From contig JAPWJW010000002.1 of the NCBI GenBank assembly GCA_028283825.1, positions 1 to 64,000 on the forward strand: DNA of 64,000 nt, read 5' to 3'. Shown here one piece after another: positions 35,394-45,468 of this stretch; position 1 is the stretch's first letter, and every line of letters begins with the position of its first letter. The notes beneath the pieces were generated by a model. It did no database searches, was not told the DNA's origin, and saw only the letters and a list, made by a program, of their open reading frames with translations. This DNA is from Azospirillaceae bacterium (GTDB lineage: Bacteria; Pseudomonadota; Alphaproteobacteria; Azospirillales; Azospirillaceae). The translations under genes and the position numbers were made by a program.

Positions 35394-38300
35394 ATGAGAT
35401 TCACCGATCTATTCGTGAAACGGCCCATCCTGGCGCTGGTGATCAGCCTGCTGATCCTGCTGGTGGGCCTGCGGTCGCTGTCGACGCTGCCCATCCGGCA
35501 GTATATCCCAAGCTGTCGTCCACCACCATCGCCATCACCACGGCCTATCCGGGCGCCACCGCCGACCTGATGCAGGGGTTCATCACCACCCCCATCGAAC
35601 AGGCGGTGGCCAGCGCCGACGGCATCGACTACATGACCTCCACCTCCATCCAGGGGCAGAGCACGGTCACGGTCTACGTCAAGCTGAACTATGACCCCAG
35701 CCAGGCCATGACCGACGTCATGGCCAAGGTGCAGCAGGTCAAGTACCTGATCCCGAAAGAGGCCAACGACCCGGTCATCACCAAGTCCACCGGCGACACC
35801 ACAGCGGTGATGTACCTGAGCTTCGCGTCCAAGGAGCTTCAGGGCTCCGCCATCTCCGACTACCTCACCCGGGTGGTGCAGCCGCTGATCGCGACGGTGG
35901 ATGGCGTGGCCTCGGCCGACATCCTGGGCGGCCAGACCTTCGCCATGCGCCTGTGGCTGGACCCGGCCCGCATGGCGGCGCGCGGCGTTTCCGCCAGCGA
36001 CGTCGCCACCGCCCTGCAGAACAACAACGTGCAGTCGGCGCCGGGCCAGGTGAAGGGCCTGTTCACGGTGTCCAACGTCACCGCCGACACCGACCTGACC
36101 AGTGTGGAGGATTTCCGCCGCATGGTGGTCAAGTCGTCCGGCGGGGCGCTGGTGCGGCTGGAGGATGTGGCGTCCATCTCCCTGGGCGCCCAGAACACCA
36201 ACAGCGCCGTCATGTTCAGCGGCCTGAATGCCGTGTTCATCGGCGTGCAGGTCACCCCCACCGGCAACCCCTTGCAGATGGTGCAGGACGTCCGCACCAA
36301 GATCCTGCCGGAAATCCAGCGCAACCTGCCCCCCGCCATTGAGATGAAGGTGGCCTATGACGCCACCAACTTCATCAACGCCTCAATCAGCGAGGTGGAG
36401 CACACGCTGATCGAGGCCATCGGCATCGTCATCGTCGTCATCTTCCTGTTCCTAGGATCCCTGCGGTCGGTGCTGATCCCGGTGGTCACCATCCCGCTGT
36501 CCCTGATCGGCGCCTTCAGCCTGATGCTGGCGGCGGGGTTCAGCCTGAACCTGCTGACCCTGCTGGCCATGGTGCTGGCCATCGGCCTGGTGGTGGACGA
36601 CGCCATCGTGGTGGTGGAAAACGTCTATCGACACCTGGAAGAGGGCAAGACGCCGGTGCAGGCCGCATTGGTGGGCGCGCGCGAGATCGCGGGACCGGTC
36701 ATCGCCATGACCATCACGCTGGCCGCCGTGTACGCCCCCATCGGCCTGCTGGGCGGCGTCACCGGATCATTGTTCCGCGAGTTCGCCTTCACCCTGGCGG
36801 GTGCGGTCGTCATCTCCGGCATCGTGGCCTTGACCCTGTCACCCATGATGGCGTCGGTGCTGATGCCCAAGGGCGGCGACCACACCCGCTTCTCCCGCGC
36901 CATCGACCGGGTGTTCGGCGGCCTGGCCAACTTCTACGAACGGCGCCTGACCCGGTCGCTGGACTATCGGCCCGTCACCCTGCTGTTCGCGGCGGTGGTG
37001 CTGGTCAGCATTCCCTACCTGTACCTGCACGGCCGCACGGAACTGGCCCCGGAAGAGGACCAGGGCATCCTGTTCAGCCTGTTCAAGGGGCCGCAGTACG
37101 CCAACATCGACTATACCCAGCACTACGCCCAGCAGCTGGACGCCGCCGGCGGCACCCTGCCCGAGGGGCGGGAACGGTTCCTGATCAGCGGCACCAACGG
37201 CACCTCCCAGGGTATCGCGGGCGTGCTGCTGAAGCCGTGGGATGAGCGTGACCGGCCGGTGCAGCAATCGCTGGCGGCCTTGCAGGGCGCCTTCAGCCAG
37301 GTGCCCGGCGTCAAGGCGCTGGTGTTCAACCTGCCGCCCCTGCCCGGCACCACCGGCGGCCTGCCGGTGCAGATGGTGCTGAACTCCACCGCCGGCTTCC
37401 CCGACATCTATGAGACGATGGAGAAGATCAAGACGGCGGCCTATGCCAGCCACAAGTTCCTGATCGTCGACAGCGACCTGGACTACAACACCCCCGTGGT
37501 GCGCGTGCACATCGACCGGTCCAAGGCCAACGAGATGGGCGTCACCATGGCGTCCATCGGCGACACCCTGGCCCTGATGGTGGGTGAGAACTACGTCAAC
37601 CGCTTCAACCTGCAGGGCCGGTCGTACGAGGTCATCCCCCAGGTGCCGCGCATCGACCGCCTGACGCCGGACAAGCTGACGCGGTTCTACGTCACCTCCG
37701 TCACCGGCGACCAGGTGCCGCTGTCCACCTTCCTGAAGCTGGAGGACGGCACCGACCCCAACGCCCTGACCCACTACAACCAGATGAATTCCGCCACCTT
37801 CCAGGCCGTGCCCATGCCGGGCGTGTCCATGGGCGAGGCGGTCGCCTTCCTGGAAGACCAGGTGAAGAACCTGCCGGCCGGCTACAGCCATTCCTACCTG
37901 AGCCAGACGCGGCAGTTCGTGCAGGAGGGCAACCAGCTGGCCACGACCTTCGGCTTCGCGCTGATCGTCATCTTCCTGGTGCTGGCCGCCCAGTTCGAAA
38001 GCCTGCGCGACCCGCTGGTCATCATGGTCAGCGTGCCCATGTCCATCTGTGGCGCGCTGATCCCCCTGTTCATCGGCATCACCAGCATCAACATCTACAC
38101 CCAGGTCGGCCTGGTGACGCTGATCGGCCTGATTTCCAAGCATGGCATCCTGCTGGTGGAATTCGCCAACGAGATGCAGGTGAAGGAAGGGCTGGACCGG
38201 CGCGACGCCATCCTGCACGCCGCCCGCGTGCGCCTGCGCCCCATCCTGATGACCACCGCCGCCATGGTGGTGGGCCTGTTCCCGCTGCTGACCGCGTCGG

Positions 38301-38470
38301 GGGCGGGGGCGGCCAGCCGCTTCTCCATCGGCCTGGTGGTGGTGACCGGCATGTCCATCGGCACGCTGTTCACCCTGTTCGTGCTGCCGGCGGTCTACAC
38401 CCTGATCGCCAAGGACCACAAAGCCGCCGCCCAGTCGCTGCGTCTGAAGGAAATCGCCGAGGTCGCGTAA
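35394..38470 (+). pseudogene. RND multidrug efflux pump, HAE-1/AcrB type (frameshifted near N-terminus)
   Basis: The gene opens at ATG 35394 with a normal pump start (MRFTDLFVKRPILALVISLL), but after LPIRQY an extra AT at about 35505-35506 (TATAT instead of TAT) throws the frame into a stop within about 30 codons. In the other frame the protein continues perfectly to 38470 (SSTTIAITTAYPGATADLMQ onward), with the TM4 Asp pair in IGLVVDDAIVVVEN and twelve membrane helices in all. Total length would be about 1,024 residues, normal for the family. A product started at ATG 35570 would lack TM1 and probably not work. It is in an operon with the adaptor upstream and ends in a hairpin. Error or true lesion cannot be told here. 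Confidence 0.9.
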
Positions 38471-38497
38471 AAACGGTCCGAGGTGATGCGTTTCATG

Positions 38498-38526
38498 AAA
38501 CGGCCGGGGCCAGTCCCCGGCCGTTT
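38498..38526 (+). terminator. Rho-independent terminator of the RND operon
   Basis: Arms AAACGGCCGGGG (38498-38509) and CCCCGGCCGTTT (38515-38526) over a 5-base loop, followed by TCGTT, 28 bases after the pump stop codon. Confidence 0.8.
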
Positions 38527-38597
38527 TCGTTCGCCCCAAGGGAGATGGAAATGCCTTTGCCATCAAGGTCCAGCCAGCGAAGAAAGGAAAAATCGGT

Positions 38598-38606
38598 TGA
38601 TATAAT
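38598..38606 (+). promoter_or_regulatory. Candidate extended -10 promoter of the RADAR operon
   Basis: TGATATAAT contains a perfect TATAAT preceded by TGn. No good -35 hexamer is seen at the usual distance, as is normal for extended -10 promoters. The leader to the rdrA start would be about 110 bases. Confidence 0.4.
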
Positions 38607-38722
38607 CCCCTATATCTCGCCATAAATACTCGTGGAACTTGCGCCACCTTTGCGACCTCCCCTCATATCGCAAAAAGCGAAGGATGCATGCGTTGGCTAA
38701 TAATGTTTTAGGGTGGTAAATC

Positions 38723-41335
38723 TTGGAAAATAAAATTTCGATTGATGTGACTTTAGGTGATCGAGCCCGTTCCTTCGATGCTAAAAGCCGTCTACAAAAG
38801 ACGGCATATGATGAGGTGATGCAAAGTCTAGAGTCCTGCCTATCGCAAGCCAATGAGTTCTTGAGCAATCAACCATTGACTCCAAGCCCAAGTGATGAGT
38901 TAATTCGTATTCACAATGCCATTTTTGTCAATGGACCTCGTGGTTCTGGCAAGACCGCATTCATGCTTAACCTAAATAGATCATGGAAAGAACATTATAT
39001 TAACCAAACTGATAGCCTTTATTTCTTTAACCCGATTGATCCGACATTACTGGATGGTGCGGACAGCTTCGTCAATATCATCGTTGCTCAAATCTATAGG
39101 ATCGTTTCCAAGCATCAGAACGGGCGTCCCGGGGATCGTTTCTGGAAAACTTTCGAAAAAGTTGCTGAAGCATTGGAGGCAGGAGGTACGCTTTCTGGCA
39201 ACGAGGTATTCGGTGCAGAACGCGTCATGGCTACGCGTGACCATGCCGAGTTGGAACTGAACCTGAACCTTTTTTTCCGTGCCGCCTGTGAGATCCTGTC
39301 CGCCAAGGCTCTCGTCATCCTGATCGATGACGTGGATATGTCTTTAGAATGGGGCTTCAAGGTTTTGGAGGTGGTGCGTCGTTATCTCGCCTGTCCTCTG
39401 ATCATTCCGATTCTCAGCGGAGATCTGAAGCAATACGAAGTACTGGTTATGTCGCATTTTGCCAAGGAACTTGGCATCAGCGCGGAAATGCGAAACTTGT
39501 CGTGGAAGGAACTGCTGACGCCGTCGGATTTGTCCGAAAAGAGCAACGCCGCCCTGCCGACAATGGCCCGCGGCTTGGCAGGAGAATACTTGAAGAAAGT
39601 TCTGCCTCTGCATCAACGTGTGCGCATCAAGTCGATACCGGAATTGCTACACACGAATGACGCACCGATTCATATCGAATGTGGTGATGGTGGAATTGAA
39701 TTAAACGATTTCCTGCGCCAGCTGGCCTACGCCTTGAGCTTCAATGCAAATGGAGTAGAGGGCAGCTGCCCTCCCGTGGAAATTGAAACAGCCCGCGAAC
39801 TCATGCAGCTTTTACTTATCCTGTATCGCCGAAAGCTCATACCGATCAAGTCAGAAGAATGGTCCAAGAAAACGTGGACCACACGTGATAAACGGCGCGT
39901 CCTAGCCGACGCCATGAATGAATATTGGCGCAATCAAAGCATGCCTGAACTGTACATCCGCGCGCAGGCGGACGTGCAGTTGCTCGCCCCACAGCCGCCG
40001 GCACGCCTTTCCGATGTGGCGTTTTTCGATCCGCGCCAGCAGGACCAAACCGTCGCCAACTACAGCTTGGACGCGCAAGCCGCTATCCTTCGCGCACGCC
40101 TGCTGAAAAGCCTTGCCGACATTCAGAGCGGCGCCTTGCCGCGCACGCTGTTACCGATGCCGGCCTTTGAAACGATTTCCCGCGACCTTTTCATTCGGAA
40201 AGCCGACTGGCGGAAATTTGCGATCCCCGGCACCGATGCCGGCACCCGCTTCATGATGCGGCTTTATACACACTCGGGATATTATACCAGCTACCAGACA
40301 GCGAACCTTCTGTTCTTTGGCCGCCCCCTCGAAATGATCATATCCCATCTCCTCGGGATGATTGATCAGAAGAACCTGCGGTCCATCTTGGAATCTCCTC
40401 CTTATTATTCCTATTTCTATTTCCACCCGACCCAGACGACCAACCTCAACATTGAATCTTCGGAACAGGATGAGGACGATGCGGCGTCAGCGGATGACCA
40501 TAACACCGGCGTATTAACTACAGGCGACTTTGAAGAAAAATGGCTTGTTCGCGTCAGCACCTGGTACGAAAGGCATCCCATGCTAGCGAAACGGCCGCCC
40601 TCTGCACAACTAATCTATAAGGTTATCAACAAGTTTTTTAGCCAGATTAACTTATACAAGGCACCTCTCGATTCAACGACCGCTATTGCGGACACACTCC
40701 ATGACCAGAATCTTCGACTAAAGCTGATCCTGATGAATGCTTTCGCCAGCTTTGAGAATGACAAAAACGCCTTGGCGCTGGAGAACTTCGCGCTCGGAGA
40801 ACTCAACCACTACCGTTCCGCTGCGGCATGGAACCTGAACATTGTGCCGCTCCTAAATCCCGTGGAAGACACTTTCGTCGGCGCCATTTCCACGCATCCG
40901 CTGTTCGAAGACATGCCGCCCCTCAAGGAAATCTCTCTCACCAGTGCATCGAGTCGGTCAACAATGAAAGATAATAAAAATGATAGATCTGAAAAAAAGC
41001 CATTCGTTTTTAATTTATACTCCTTGAGAAATACGGCTAATAATCTCAGCAAAGAAGACAAGATAATTAATACTAGAATATTGCGTAGTATTTTTGGAAA
41101 AAACTTGCATGAAAGAATTAAGATTTCTGGCGCGCCAAATGGCAACGATACTAATATTACCGCCGATATGATAATTGATGCGATAAGAAGTAATGCCAAT
41201 AAAGTGACTGGAAGATCAGAACAGATAGCCAGTCAAATAATGTATATTGGCGGAGAAGCTTGGAAAATTAGATCTATCATGACTGCCGCAGGCCGATTGG
41301 AGGAACTTCTGCACCTACTCCTGGACATGCAATGA
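38723..41335 (+). CDS. rdrA: RADAR anti-phage system ATPase RdrA
   Basis: Protein of 870 residues starting at TTG 38723; AGGGTGG seven bases upstream and an in-frame stop at 38717 fix this start, and the next Met is residue 33. A P-loop NTPase: Walker A GPRGSGKTA (about 71-79), Walker B VILIDDVDMS (about 198-207), and a helical C-terminal half without other motifs. Size, the P-loop near residue 70, and above all the overlapping 3' neighbour, a huge adenosine deaminase, match RdrA of RADAR. In published systems RdrA assembles with RdrB into a large complex that edits adenosine (RNA and/or ATP) to inosine on phage infection. Base composition is far more AT-rich than the neighbours, as expected for a transferred defence locus. 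Confidence 0.85.
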   Translation: MENKISIDVTLGDRARSFDAKSRLQKTAYDEVMQSLESCLSQANEFLSNQPLTPSPSDELIRIHNAIFVNGPRGSGKTAFMLNLNRSWKEHYINQTDSLYFFNPIDPTLLDGADSFVNIIVAQIYRIVSKHQNGRPGDRFWKTFEKVAEALEAGGTLSGNEVFGAERVMATRDHAELELNLNLFFRAACEILSAKALVILIDDVDMSLEWGFKVLEVVRRYLACPLIIPILSGDLKQYEVLVMSHFAKELGISAEMRNLSWKELLTPSDLSEKSNAALPTMARGLAGEYLKKVLPLHQRVRIKSIPELLHTNDAPIHIECGDGGIELNDFLRQLAYALSFNANGVEGSCPPVEIETARELMQLLLILYRRKLIPIKSEEWSKKTWTTRDKRRVLADAMNEYWRNQSMPELYIRAQADVQLLAPQPPARLSDVAFFDPRQQDQTVANYSLDAQAAILRARLLKSLADIQSGALPRTLLPMPAFETISRDLFIRKADWRKFAIPGTDAGTRFMMRLYTHSGYYTSYQTANLLFFGRPLEMIISHLLGMIDQKNLRSILESPPYYSYFYFHPTQTTNLNIESSEQDEDDAASADDHNTGVLTTGDFEEKWLVRVSTWYERHPMLAKRPPSAQLIYKVINKFFSQINLYKAPLDSTTAIADTLHDQNLRLKLILMNAFASFENDKNALALENFALGELNHYRSAAAWNLNIVPLLNPVEDTFVGAISTHPLFEDMPPLKEISLTSASSRSTMKDNKNDRSEKKPFVFNLYSLRNTANNLSKEDKIINTRILRSIFGKNLHERIKISGAPNGNDTNITADMIIDAIRSNANKVTGRSEQIASQIMYIGGEAWKIRSIMTAAGRLEELLHLLLDMQ

Positions 41336-43962
41336 GCGCCATGCCGATCCTGGAACAAGCGCCGCGGATCGCCTTCCTTCGATCCCTGGCGTTTGCCCGA
41401 TTGCTGGCCCAACTTCTACTTGCCGAGGGCGACCCGGCGATAAACGACAAGCAGGTGCGCGGTACTTTGGTTGCGACCGTTTTTCGGCCGCATGCCGACG
41501 TCCTGCGCCAGGATGATGTCGAGGACGTCGTCGGCGATTTGTGGCACAAGGCCAAGCGCCCCGATGGCCTATATGACCTGGGCGCGGCGGGCCCGCACGG
41601 CATCCTGGCGGACCTTGCGTTCACATATTTGGAACACATGGGTGGACACTATGAGGTGCGTGCCCAGCATCTGGAAAATTACTGTGACTTGGTACGGAGC
41701 ATCGATCCCATCTTCCTAATAGCGACCCGCCATGTGCACCATCTGTGCAAGGAAGAACTGGATGTCGCGACCCTCGACACAGGGTTGGAGCGGCAAAGCC
41801 CGTTGGCGATGCCGTTGGGGGATCCCGACCGTCCCCATGCCGATAACCATGTCCATTTATATGGCATCGGCATCACCGCCCACCCCTTGGCCGGACTGTT
41901 ATTCTATCCCGACAAGTCCGATCCAGACATCAAGATCGCCTTCGACCCGACCTTGGGAATAGGCAGCGCTTCCGATTTCCGGCTTCAAGAACGTCTGTTT
42001 TGCGCGAGCGCTCGATATATTCTTGAATATGCTAGCATGCAGCTCAAGCCCGACCTCTCGGAACTTGCAGATGAACAACGCCGGGGTTTATGGGAAGGTC
42101 GTCGGATCATATGGCCAAGGCTTTTTGAAGAGCGGCTCTCCAACACCAGCACCTTATCCATTCCGCAACAGCTGGCGCTGGGAGTTGCGCGTGCGGCAAG
42201 AATGGATAACGCCGCCAAGTCACTGCAAACTTTCGCCATTCTGGCACTCTACCTGCACACCGCAATAGACCAAGGCGAATGGCGCCTGCACCGATCTATC
42301 CTGGCGTTCATACATTCTTTCCATATCCTTCGCTCCTGCATCATCGTCTCAGGTGCTGGGCTTCGAACTTTTGTTGAATATTATCGAAATCCCATGCGGT
42401 ACCGGGGGCGGAGTTTTATCGCCAAGGATCAGTGGCGGGCTTTGCTGGGCAACGGCATGGATATGATCGATGCCAAGATCGCTCCGCCCCATCCAAAAAA
42501 AATACGCCAGTTGAGCACCCAATTAAGCGCTCATGCAAAAGCAACGGCAAAAGAAGCGAGCGGAGTCGGCACGTTCCTAAACCCGACGCAACACGGTTGG
42601 CAGCGATACCATCTATCCCTCCATTTTATTCGCAGCGCCATTTCCCCGAAAAGCAGCACCACGCCACACTTGGCCATCCGTTTCGGACGGGAACGCGACC
42701 GAGCCAGGGACGTCGCCCAGAAACTCAGAACGGCGTTGGCGAACGTCATCTGGGAAACGGCGGACCACCCCACCGGCGGCCCTATCCGGCAAAATATCAC
42801 CAGTTGGATTCGCAGTTTCGATATCGCCGGTGACGAAACCTGTATGCCGGTGGAGGTGTTCGCACCAGCCTTCCGCTGGCTACGCGACAAACCCATCGTT
42901 CAAACCATTGGCGGCCAAACCCGCGTTTGCGCAAAGCGTTTCTTCAGCATTCATGCCGGTGAAGATTTCAGCCACCTTGTTTCCGGCCTGCGCCACATGG
43001 AAGAAACGGTCGAGTTCTGTGGCCTTGGCACCGACGACCGTATCGGTCATGGCCTTGCTCTGGGATTGGACCCCCGAAGCTGGGCGAAACGGCAGGGCAT
43101 CGCGATCATCCCCTTGCAGGCGCACGTGGACAACATGGTCTGGCTTTGGCATTACGCCACCCACCTAGCCCCCAAGGTAGAGATCGCCACGCGTTTGCTT
43201 CCTCATTTGCGCCGTCGGCTTGATCTCTTCTTGTATGAGTTGCATGGCCATGAACCACCAAGCTTCGAGACCTTGCACCGCGCCTGGCGGCTGAGAAGAA
43301 ACTGCCCGCGCGGCCTGCTAGGCGAAGCCGTCGATGCCAATCTCAACGACGCAATCTATTGGACCCCAGACCTAGTGGAGGTCCCGGATCTTCAGAAACA
43401 CCCCGAATTCGCCGAGTATCGACGCTACCTCAACCCACACGATGCCGACACCGGGCCACAGCGGGGTCAAGAACAGGTGCGCATCCGACTTAACCGTGTC
43501 GGGGAAAGCGGGCGGACGCTGGGTGAACTGGTCGATTACGTCAGCCAGGACGAACTGGATCTTATCACCGCCATACAAGACCACCTGATGACTCTTATCG
43601 ATGCGAAAGGCATCGTCATTGAGGCGTGTCCGACCTCCAATCTCTACATCGCGAAACTCCCAGGATACGATGCGCATCCGTTATTTCGCTGGAACCCGCC
43701 GGACCCGGGCACCCTCGCCCCTGGAGGAAAGTTCAACCGGTTCGGACTGCGCAATGGCCCGATCACGATATGCCTGAACACCGACGATCCGGCCATCATG
43801 CCCACCACCATTCTTGCCGAGCATCACTTGGTGCGTGAAGCAGCAATACGTTGCCATGGTGTGTCGCGCGTGGCGGCGACGGCCTGGATTGATCAAATCC
43901 GGACAAACGGTGTTGATCTCTTTCGCCGGGCTCACCGGCTTGTTGACCTACGTGATGCGTAA
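41332..43962 (+). CDS. rdrB: RADAR anti-phage system adenosine deaminase RdrB
   Basis: Protein of 876 residues whose ATG overlaps the rdrA stop (ATGA, 41332-41335), so the two are translationally coupled. The deaminase signature is complete: HVH at residues 173-175 in ADNHVHLYG, HAGED at 541-545, RIGHG with His573, and LNTDDP with Asp818-Asp819. These are the zinc ligands and catalytic acids of the adenosine deaminase superfamily. At 876 residues it is more than twice a normal adenosine deaminase, with insertions between the HxH and HAGE motifs, typical of RdrB. The published role is A-to-I conversion of ATP/RNA in infected cells. No accessory rdrC or rdrD gene (small membrane protein) is visible on either side. 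Confidence 0.88.
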   Translation: MSAMPILEQAPRIAFLRSLAFARLLAQLLLAEGDPAINDKQVRGTLVATVFRPHADVLRQDDVEDVVGDLWHKAKRPDGLYDLGAAGPHGILADLAFTYLEHMGGHYEVRAQHLENYCDLVRSIDPIFLIATRHVHHLCKEELDVATLDTGLERQSPLAMPLGDPDRPHADNHVHLYGIGITAHPLAGLLFYPDKSDPDIKIAFDPTLGIGSASDFRLQERLFCASARYILEYASMQLKPDLSELADEQRRGLWEGRRIIWPRLFEERLSNTSTLSIPQQLALGVARAARMDNAAKSLQTFAILALYLHTAIDQGEWRLHRSILAFIHSFHILRSCIIVSGAGLRTFVEYYRNPMRYRGRSFIAKDQWRALLGNGMDMIDAKIAPPHPKKIRQLSTQLSAHAKATAKEASGVGTFLNPTQHGWQRYHLSLHFIRSAISPKSSTTPHLAIRFGRERDRARDVAQKLRTALANVIWETADHPTGGPIRQNITSWIRSFDIAGDETCMPVEVFAPAFRWLRDKPIVQTIGGQTRVCAKRFFSIHAGEDFSHLVSGLRHMEETVEFCGLGTDDRIGHGLALGLDPRSWAKRQGIAIIPLQAHVDNMVWLWHYATHLAPKVEIATRLLPHLRRRLDLFLYELHGHEPPSFETLHRAWRLRRNCPRGLLGEAVDANLNDAIYWTPDLVEVPDLQKHPEFAEYRRYLNPHDADTGPQRGQEQVRIRLNRVGESGRTLGELVDYVSQDELDLITAIQDHLMTLIDAKGIVIEACPTSNLYIAKLPGYDAHPLFRWNPPDPGTLAPGGKFNRFGLRNGPITICLNTDDPAIMPTTILAEHHLVREAAIRCHGVSRVAATAWIDQIRTNGVDLFRRAHRLVDLRDA

Positions 43963-44006
43963 TGCGCCTGTCAGGTGCGCTCCCCCGGGAGAGGGCCAGG
44001 CTTACG

Positions 44007-44249
44007 CTACTTCCCCTGGTTACCGCCGATGACGACGGTGGGTATCCAGCCGCGTCCGCGCGAGGGCACCTTCGCGGCATCGGTTTCCCGCAGGCGCACG
44101 GCGGGCGCACCATCCCCCGCGCGATCCAGATCGACAATTTCTCGCAATCTGCGAGCCAAAATGGGATCGCCGGCGGCATCCAGTTCATCGGCCGCGCGTT
44201 CCAATTTCTGGCGGATTTCCTCGGCATCGTAATAGGTAATGTCGTCCAT
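44007..44249 (-). CDS. Small hypothetical protein (80 aa)
   Basis: Starts at ATG 44249 (MDDITYYDAEEIRQKLERAA) and is largely charged and helical in its first half, then has a basic loop and a hydrophobic end (WIPTVVIGGNQGK). The amino-acid mix is protein-like and the codon use is that of the GC-rich host, unlike the convergent rdrB. There is no strong ribosome-binding site and no family is recognised. It marks the right border of the AT-rich island. Confidence 0.55.
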   Translation of the reverse strand: MDDITYYDAEEIRQKLERAADELDAAGDPILARRLREIVDLDRAGDGAPAVRLRETDAAKVPSRGRGWIPTVVIGGNQGK

Positions 44250-44453
44250 GGCGGCACCCGTGCGTAGGCTGTACACATGCCGTTAACGCAAACTCCGTGC
44301 CGCTTGGGCCCTATCCGGATGGCAGGCCCCACGCCCACCCCAAGCGAAGGTCGCGCGCCGTTGGCGGACGTGGTAGGCAGGGCGTATTCAGGTTGGTATC
44401 CCAATCGCTTGGGACCGCATCCCTTCATCCCCCGCCAGGAAGCCCGTTCCCCC

Positions 44454-45468
44454 ATGTCTCCCGTACTGGTCACCGGCAGTGCCGGGTTCATCGGCAACCA
44501 TGTGGCGCTGGCCCTGTTGCGCCGGGGCGTGCCGGTCGTGGGGCTGGACAATCTGAACGACTATTACGACGTGGGGCTGAAGCGGGCGCGGCTGGCCCGC
44601 CTGGCGGAATTCCCGTCGTTCACCGAGGCGCGCATCGACCTGGCCGACCGCGACGCGGTGGCCGCCCTGTTCCGCGACCACGGCTTCGGCCAGGTGGTGC
44701 ATCTGGGCGCCCAGGCCGGCGTGCGCTATAGCATGGAGGCGCCGGCGGCCTATGTGGACAGCAATCTGGTCGGTTTCGCCAATGTGCTGGAGGGATGCCG
44801 CGGCAGTGCGGCCGCCCATCTGATCTTCGCCTCCACCAGTTCGGTCTACGGCGCCAGCACGGCCCTGCCGTTCAGCCCGCACAAGGGTGCCGACCACCCG
44901 ACGACGCTGTACGCCGCCACCAAACGCGCCAACGAACTGATGGCCCATTCCTACAGCCATCTGTTCGGCCTTCCGGTGACGGGCCTGCGCCTGTTCACGG
45001 TCTAACGGCCCCTGGGGCCGGCCGGACATGGCCCTGTTCAAGTTCGCGCAGGCCATCGTCGACGGCCGCCCCATCGAAGTCTATGGCGAGGGGCGCATGC
45101 AGCGCGACTTCACCTATATCGACGACGTGGTCGCGGCCATCCTGGGCCTGCTGGACCGGCCGCCCGCCCGTGACCCCGCCTGGTCGGGCGACAGCCCGGA
45201 CCCCGCCAGCAGCGGTGTGGCCCCCTACCGCATCTTCAACGTCGGCAGCGACCGCCCGGTGGAACTGATGCGGTACGTCCGCCTGCTGGAGGAAAAACTG
45301 GGCCAGCCGGCCGACATCCGCCTGCTGCCCATCCAGCCGGGCGAACTGCCGGCCACCTGGGCCGACATCGACGACCTGGCCGACGCCATCGGCTACGCCC
45401 CCCAGACCCCGGTGGAGGAAGGCGTGGGGCGGTTCGTGGAGTGGTTCCGGGAATACCGGGCGGTCTGA
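44454..45468 (+). pseudogene. NAD-dependent sugar-nucleotide epimerase, UDP-glucuronate 4-epimerase-like (frameshifted)
   Basis: From ATG 44454 the protein begins with the Rossmann motif VTGSAGFIGNHVALALL and the LNDYYDVGLKRARLARL segment typical of UDP-glucuronate epimerases, then shows the catalytic Ser region (FASTSSVYG) and YAATK. After LRLFTV an extra A (TAAC in place of TAC at 45003-45006) creates a stop; in the next frame the gene resumes at once as YGPWGRPDMALFKFAQAI and continues to 45468 with RDFTYIDDVVAAI. Joined, it is about 337 residues, the usual length. It interconverts UDP-sugars for surface polysaccharides; the convergent asnB gene fits an envelope context only loosely. Confidence 0.88.

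Follow-up and report, generated by a model that had tools for sequence, protein, structure and literature searches.

A Divergent Two-Gene RADAR Operon on a Foreign Insert in an Azospirillaceae Genome

Introduction

In the RADAR anti-phage system of Escherichia coli, RdrA forms rings that dock on a 12-mer shell of RdrB, which is built by the extra segments of this deaminase (PMC9994260). E. coli RdrB converts ATP and dATP to ITP and dITP, RdrA raises this activity, and defence needs both active sites; the trigger of RdrA is left open there (PMC9994260). The same paper counts 270 RADAR systems in about 38,000 genomes, in a table that may include the species considered here (PMC9994260). The titles and abstract beginnings that were searched contain no RADAR from this bacterial group, which is not proof of absence. 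Here, we describe the identity, gene order, catalytic residues, model folds and foreign origin of an rdrA-rdrB pair in an Azospirillaceae bacterium (GCA_028283825.1), found in the first 64,000 nucleotides of contig JAPWJW010000002.1, which are referred to as the window. An earlier note, made from the letters alone, had read this pair as RADAR of the kind described in enterobacteria and others. The pair is a real, complete and divergent RADAR operon. It is very probably a horizontally acquired two-gene anti-phage operon with RdrA as sensor and activator and RdrB as effector deaminating (d)ATP.

Family Identity and Operon Layout

Both proteins match the RADAR family models, those of PADLOC at 3.9e-63 (RdrA) and 2.4e-122 (RdrB) and those of NCBIfam at 1.1e-116 (RdrA, NF041743) and 1.7e-186 (RdrB, NF041744). 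Against PDB sequences, the sole RdrA matches at E <= 1 are the cryo-EM RADAR chains 8hr7/8fnt, and RdrB matches 8fnw/8fnv (about 2e-20) besides a single adenosine deaminase (0.16). Profiles of the alphaproteobacterial clade described below reach the RADAR PDB chains at 3.7e-30 (RdrA) and 2.2e-30 (RdrB, followed by three adenosine deaminases at 0.0004 or weaker). In a structure comparison with VIA-align 2 over Foldseek's top 1000 PDB chains, 705-711 residues of the RdrB model align to RdrB chains, whereas the alignments to the 48 other chains listed cover 290-354; the segments beyond the deaminase core are present, and RdrA has a RADAR-type helical C-terminal lobe. These family-model, sequence and structure comparisons, together with the conserved rdrA-rdrB order in relatives, support the identity proposed in the earlier note, and what it had named as refutation, namely best matches to unrelated STAND or AAA ATPases and housekeeping deaminases with no RdrA or RdrB match, is the opposite of what was found. 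Both frames are open at the positions and lengths that it gave, overlap by 4 bases, and contain all the motifs that it quoted.

The same 4-base overlap occurs in the other three members of the clade (L111, L113, and L114). A GG-rich stretch (agggtggt) lies close upstream of the TTG start of rdrA, a terminator scan found nothing, and the gene after rdrB is a small host gene on the opposite strand (Table 1). The operon is RADAR of the two-gene form, without rdrD: BLAST with a single query, the RdrD of L096, found no match among the open reading frames (ORFs) of at least 60 residues in the window.

The RdrB motifs HVH, HAGED, RIGHG, and NTDDP occupy residues 173-175, 541-545, 570-574, and 816-820, so that the protein carries the histidine tetrad (H173, H175, H541, and H573) and the catalytic glutamate (E544), all identical in 50 of 50 RdrB-like rows. 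D818 is kept in 49 of these rows (one gap) and D819 in 46 (three N, one gap). The alignment consists of the 48 rows of the first tree, described below, plus G774 and G807; it omits fragments, one protein with a broken frame and L049, which is of the CARF type, and two of its rows (L056 and L091) are the same sequence. H173 and H175 stand for E. coli H152 and H154 in the family alignment, this region lying outside the PDB alignment, and the other residue correspondences to E. coli RdrA and RdrB were counted by hand on PDB-chain alignments with the numbering of PMC9994260. In RdrA, GPRGSGKTA spans residues 71-79 and VILIDDVDMS residues 198-207. R73, G74, G76, and K77 of Walker A as well as D202/D203 are invariant in 23 of 23 rows; G76-K77-T78 are the residues that align with the E. 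coli Walker A, and D234 corresponds to the sensor-1 residue D253.

Table 1. Coordinates of the RADAR genes, their motifs, the insert and its flanks in the window
Feature	Position	Strand	Remarks
rdrA, AAA+ ATPase, 870 residues	38723..41335	+	TTG start
RdrA Walker A, residues 71-78 (GPRGSGKT)	38933..38956	+	Aligns with E. coli RdrA G81-K82-T83
RdrA Walker B, residues 198-203 (VILIDD)	39314..39331	+	D202/D203 align with E. coli D221/D222
rdrB, adenosine-deaminase-fold protein, 876 residues	41332..43962	+	ATG start
RdrB metal ligands H173, H175	41848..41856	+	H in 50/50 RdrB-like rows
RdrB HAGED, metal ligand H541, catalytic E544	42952..42966	+	Align with E. coli H498, E501; 50/50 rows
RdrB RIGHG, metal ligand H573	43039..43053	+	Aligns with E. 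coli H530; 50/50 rows
RdrB NTDDP, D818/D819	43777..43791	+	Conservation in the 50-row alignment
Insert with the RADAR pair, 5,491 bases, 53.2% GC	38531..44021	.	blastn against six sister loci; GC
Left flank, RND efflux permease	35570..38470	+	ACR_tran 2e-257; 91-92% in six sisters
Right flank, small conserved host gene (MDDITYYDAEEI...)	44007..44249	-	Also in sister loci L037-L041

The Insert and Its Site in Sister Species

The GC-rich background (GC, guanine plus cytosine) named in the earlier note applies to the window (67.0%) and can be refined for the pair itself, since rdrA has 48.8% and rdrB 57.6% GC. As these values lie well below that of the window, the pair is foreign to its surroundings; at third codon positions GC is 0.55 and 0.65, against 0.83-0.94 in five neighbouring genes. 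By blastn, the insert is shared with none of the six sister loci, and it holds only about 190 bases upstream and 60 bases downstream of the two genes. Very probably, the pair arrived by horizontal transfer in a single insert. Neither an integrase nor an insertion sequence could be recognised in it, and a search for direct and inverted repeats in 38440-44300 gave no convincing pair at its ends; a 14-base pair (38478-38491 and 43947-43960, 86%) is of a kind often due to chance.

All six sisters keep both flanks: to the left the RND permease, and to the right the side of the NDP-sugar epimerase and asparagine synthase. The permease is a host gene in all seven genomes of the genus that were searched. 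Between them, the site differs: in G001 the right-hand match follows the permease stop after only 95 bases, G002, G003, G004, and G006 have a small TIR gene, and G005 has about 6.4 kb of other genes, of which a regulator, a 511-residue protein and an alpha/beta hydrolase were scanned and gave no PADLOC match. The TIR copy of G006 matches Pfam TIR_2 (1.2e-16) and PADLOC ThsB (9.3e-55). The ThsB model matches four of the seven genus genomes, each at the insertion site, with a second copy elsewhere in G004; with one ThsA model, no match was found in these four genomes and weak matches only in G001 and G005. The sister loci with the ThsB-like gene in place of RADAR are L039, L040, L041, and L042. 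Defence genes may be naturally exchanged at this site, which in the sisters is either empty or occupied by a ThsB-like TIR gene or by other genes.

Several features of the flanking genes were also observed. The permease frame begins about 58 residues later than three sister copies, which are intact, and the missing start lies in another frame. For the small right-flank gene, no Pfam family was found with the L040 copy. The NDP-sugar epimerase is split into 44277-45005 and 45028-45468 (both +), each with Epimerase-family matches, by either a real frame change or an assembly error. When the region is compared with named plasmids, the ten best matches are to the efflux genes, on Azospirillum replicons (74-76%); the host is therefore likely to be an azospirillum-like alphaproteobacterium, with the genus Nitrospirillum as a guess.

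Place in the Family and Distribution

The 48-row RdrB tree consists of two large groups, one with 29 rows and one with 19. The group with the window also holds two campylobacterotal proteins and those that NCBI names in enterobacteria and Aliivibrio, and the other holds L043-L047, which come from the window's own bacterial family. Seven named loci, among them fragments, the protein with the broken frame and L049, were excluded from this tree together with ORFs below 600 residues; it again counts L056 and L091 as two rows, and its deep branching order is unsure because the program flagged long and compositionally odd rows. The excluded L049 (8825-10684, in G012) encodes a 619-residue deaminase whose weak match to the window RdrB covers only the C-terminal deaminase motifs and which may be a CARF-adenosine deaminase. 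Against 8fnw, L043 scores 334 bits, the window 76, and L051 59; by score, the solved E. coli RdrB, which is outside the tree, appears to belong with the second group and the window on a different branch.

A clade of the form (((window, G067), G774), G807) is recovered in both a 23-row RdrB tree (support 100/99) and a 30-row RdrA tree (99/98). The window and G067 are joined at 100/100 in both, and G774 at 95/90 (RdrB) and 85/84 (RdrA, where the G774 protein is cut by a contig end). RdrB of the three other pairs is 43, 41, and 37% identical to that of the window; in RdrA, the ATPase half is 35-46% and the C-terminal region 20-26% identical. Of the four, G067 alone comes from a different bacterial family, a sign that the pair may have been transferred between families. 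Comparison of the clade with the other group by profiles gives 100% probability over 694 columns for RdrB and 99.9% over 404 columns, in the N-terminal half, for RdrA. The likeness to enterobacterial RADAR in the earlier note stands for the identity of the system and fails for a close copy, as the equivalog cut-offs are missed and the pair falls in the alphaproteobacterial clade.

RdrB is sparsely distributed, in counts that include the window's own genome. In the bacterial family, 9 of 82 genomes match the window protein at E <= 1e-10, and besides the window only G774 and G807 do so near full length. With NF041744 at E <= 1e-15, matches are found in 10 of 82 genomes of the order (the same number of genomes as for the family), 6 of 385 in the class sample and 11 of 398 in the phylum sample, one of them above the cut-off. 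At the looser E <= 0.001 there are matches in 13 of 59 relatives, several of them to deaminases and both short and weak; none of the six sister species has RdrB. Genome contigs yielded 26 loci, and rdrA adjoins rdrB in 23 of them; two of the other three begin too close to the contig start. The neighbourhood of the relative in G774 includes a relaxase, a plasmid gene of the KfrA type and a subunit of type I restriction, which fits defence and mobility. Among 72,556 plasmid records seven matched, the best with 30% identity over 93%, and hence no recent plasmid donor was found. A phage origin was considered and rejected: none of 50,697 phage records matched at E <= 0.01, and viral contigs gave no pattern match.

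Since the naming cut-offs of NCBI miss this branch and the PADLOC models match it, gene names alone undercount RADAR in Alphaproteobacteria. Within one family, two distant RdrA/RdrB branches, the first with L043-L046 and the second with the window, G774, and G807, offer natural pairs for testing what RdrA senses.

Proposed Mechanism and Alternative Explanations

Because the fold, the active sites and the gene order are kept, a mechanism like that of E. coli RADAR is the best guess, and assembly, substrate, activation and defence are modelled here on that system. RdrA, whose AAA+ ATPase part is joined to a helical C-terminal lobe, would be the likely sensor and activator, and RdrB, a zinc adenosine-deaminase fold with extra segments, the effector. 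When a phage infects, docking of RdrA would make RdrB convert more ATP and dATP to ITP and dITP, and phage replication would fail in the spoiled nucleotide pool. The chemistry given in the earlier note, adenosine to inosine, has to be corrected: the reaction established in E. coli is that of free ATP and dATP, to ITP and dITP, and not one of adenosine or RNA (PMC9994260).

Several observations weigh against this interpretation. Both proteins miss the NCBIfam equivalog cut-offs (RdrA 391 vs 600 bits, RdrB 622 vs 800 bits). The cut-off marks one branch and not the RADAR system, however, because L043, near the solved E. coli protein, gets only 170.5 bits on the RdrB model. In an alignment that is uncertain at this divergence, the E. 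coli three-fold-interface glutamates E595-E597 are placed against H640-E641-P642, with one of three kept; L043, much closer to the solved RdrB, likewise shows no glutamate triad there. Two of three E. coli crown residues of RdrA, K150 and R162, are aligned to other residues, in an alignment that is uncertain at such divergence, so that either the crown contacts seem to differ or the alignment is off at this point. The RdrA model is not confident over the final ~127 residues, and no member of the alphaproteobacterial clade is known to us to have been tested. Lastly, a scan of 38440-38760 for promoters of the sigma-70 type, the only type covered, found none where 0.3 were expected by chance.

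The crown and three-fold residues that are not kept are also the ground for proposing that the clade of the window, G067, G774, and G807 is a functionally distinct subtype, with rebuilt RdrA-RdrB and RdrB-RdrB contacts and an RdrA C-terminal region, less conserved within the clade than the ATPase half, that recognises different phage signals; we consider this rather unlikely.

Somewhat less probable still is that the RADAR genes are genuine and silent or inactive in this host. The empty promoter scan, the low GC and TTG start, which fit a newcomer, and the frame changes in two flanking host genes would agree with this, but the scan was limited to one promoter type, both frames are open over their full length and all catalytic residues are kept.

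It is very improbable that the system is RADAR by descent in which (d)ITP made by RdrB is an immune signal sensed by a separate effector. The precedent is Kongming, where dITP activates KomB-KomC (review PMC12948488). In G750 (L112:242-7254, contig C53) an rdrB above the NCBI cut-off is directly followed, on the same strand, by genes for a HAM1-family pyrophosphatase (Ham1p_like, 9.3e-35) and, overlapping it, a SIR2 protein (SIR2_2, 1.9e-23). KomB is presumably HAM1-like and KomC SIR2-like; the G750 genes look like this dITP-sensing pair without KomA, and in this single case RdrB might supply the dITP. However, BLAST found no HAM1 or SIR2 match in the window, to which this search was confined, the three nearest relatives found of the G750 protein (G855, G886, and G1046) lack the two genes, and purified E. 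coli RdrB deaminates ATP, and is toxic when overexpressed, without such a partner (PMC9994260). HAM1-SIR2 as a regular partner of RADAR was rejected, since among the loci searched it stands beside rdrB only in G750. A HAM1 gene followed by a SIR2 gene, 67-68% identical to the G750 pair, was seen on a plasmid of Pantoea sp. At-9b (L126:6001-7352), and in the stretch examined there no deaminase is annotated; Pantoea accounts for 95 of the 108 plasmid records that match HAM1, of which this one was examined.

Equally improbable is RNA editing, the first proposal made for RADAR, in which the complex deaminates adenosines in RNA. It goes back to the original RADAR report (cited in PMC9994260), and PDB entries are titled as the RdrA ring in an RNA-loading state, but the fold of the RdrB model is that of enzymes acting on nucleosides and nucleotides, and hairpin RNA was not deaminated by E. 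coli RdrB where ATP was converted (PMC9994260).

A housekeeping or purine-salvage adenosine deaminase beside an unrelated STAND/AAA ATPase can be dismissed as next to impossible: Pfam A_deaminase is barely at its cut-off on RdrB (27.1 vs 27), KAP_NTPase is above its own on RdrA (30 vs 20) and general adenosine-deaminase models match weakly (TIGR01430, 35.1 bits against a cut-off of 216.55), but the RdrA and RdrB models score far higher, the structural match to RADAR is near whole-length and the pair sits on a foreign insert.

Comparison With Known Systems

Unlike Cad1, the CARF-adenosine deaminase of type III CRISPR, the pair has a partner ATPase, and the match to Cad1 spans only about 320 residues (PADLOC CARF_ADA, 0.0005). 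With RADAR systems that carry the accessory rdrD it shares the rdrA and rdrB families, but not a BLAST match to the L096 RdrD. The NCBI-named systems of E. coli AR_0128 (L097) and an Aliivibrio plasmid (L050) lie on the same branch of the RdrB tree, which the former entered as its identical plasmid copy L051; identity to them is 25-27% for RdrA and about 31% for RdrB over most of the length, and, unlike them, the window pair is below the NCBIfam cut-offs. From the E. coli RADAR with solved structures (RdrA 8fnt/8hr8, RdrB 8fnv/8fnw/8hr7) the pair differs in its identity of only 16-17% over the structural alignments, in its RdrB branch, as far as scores tell, and in interface glutamates that are not common to both, whereas it shares with that system the Walker motifs, the zinc and catalytic set, the near-full-length folds and the tandem arrangement of the two genes (PMC9994260).
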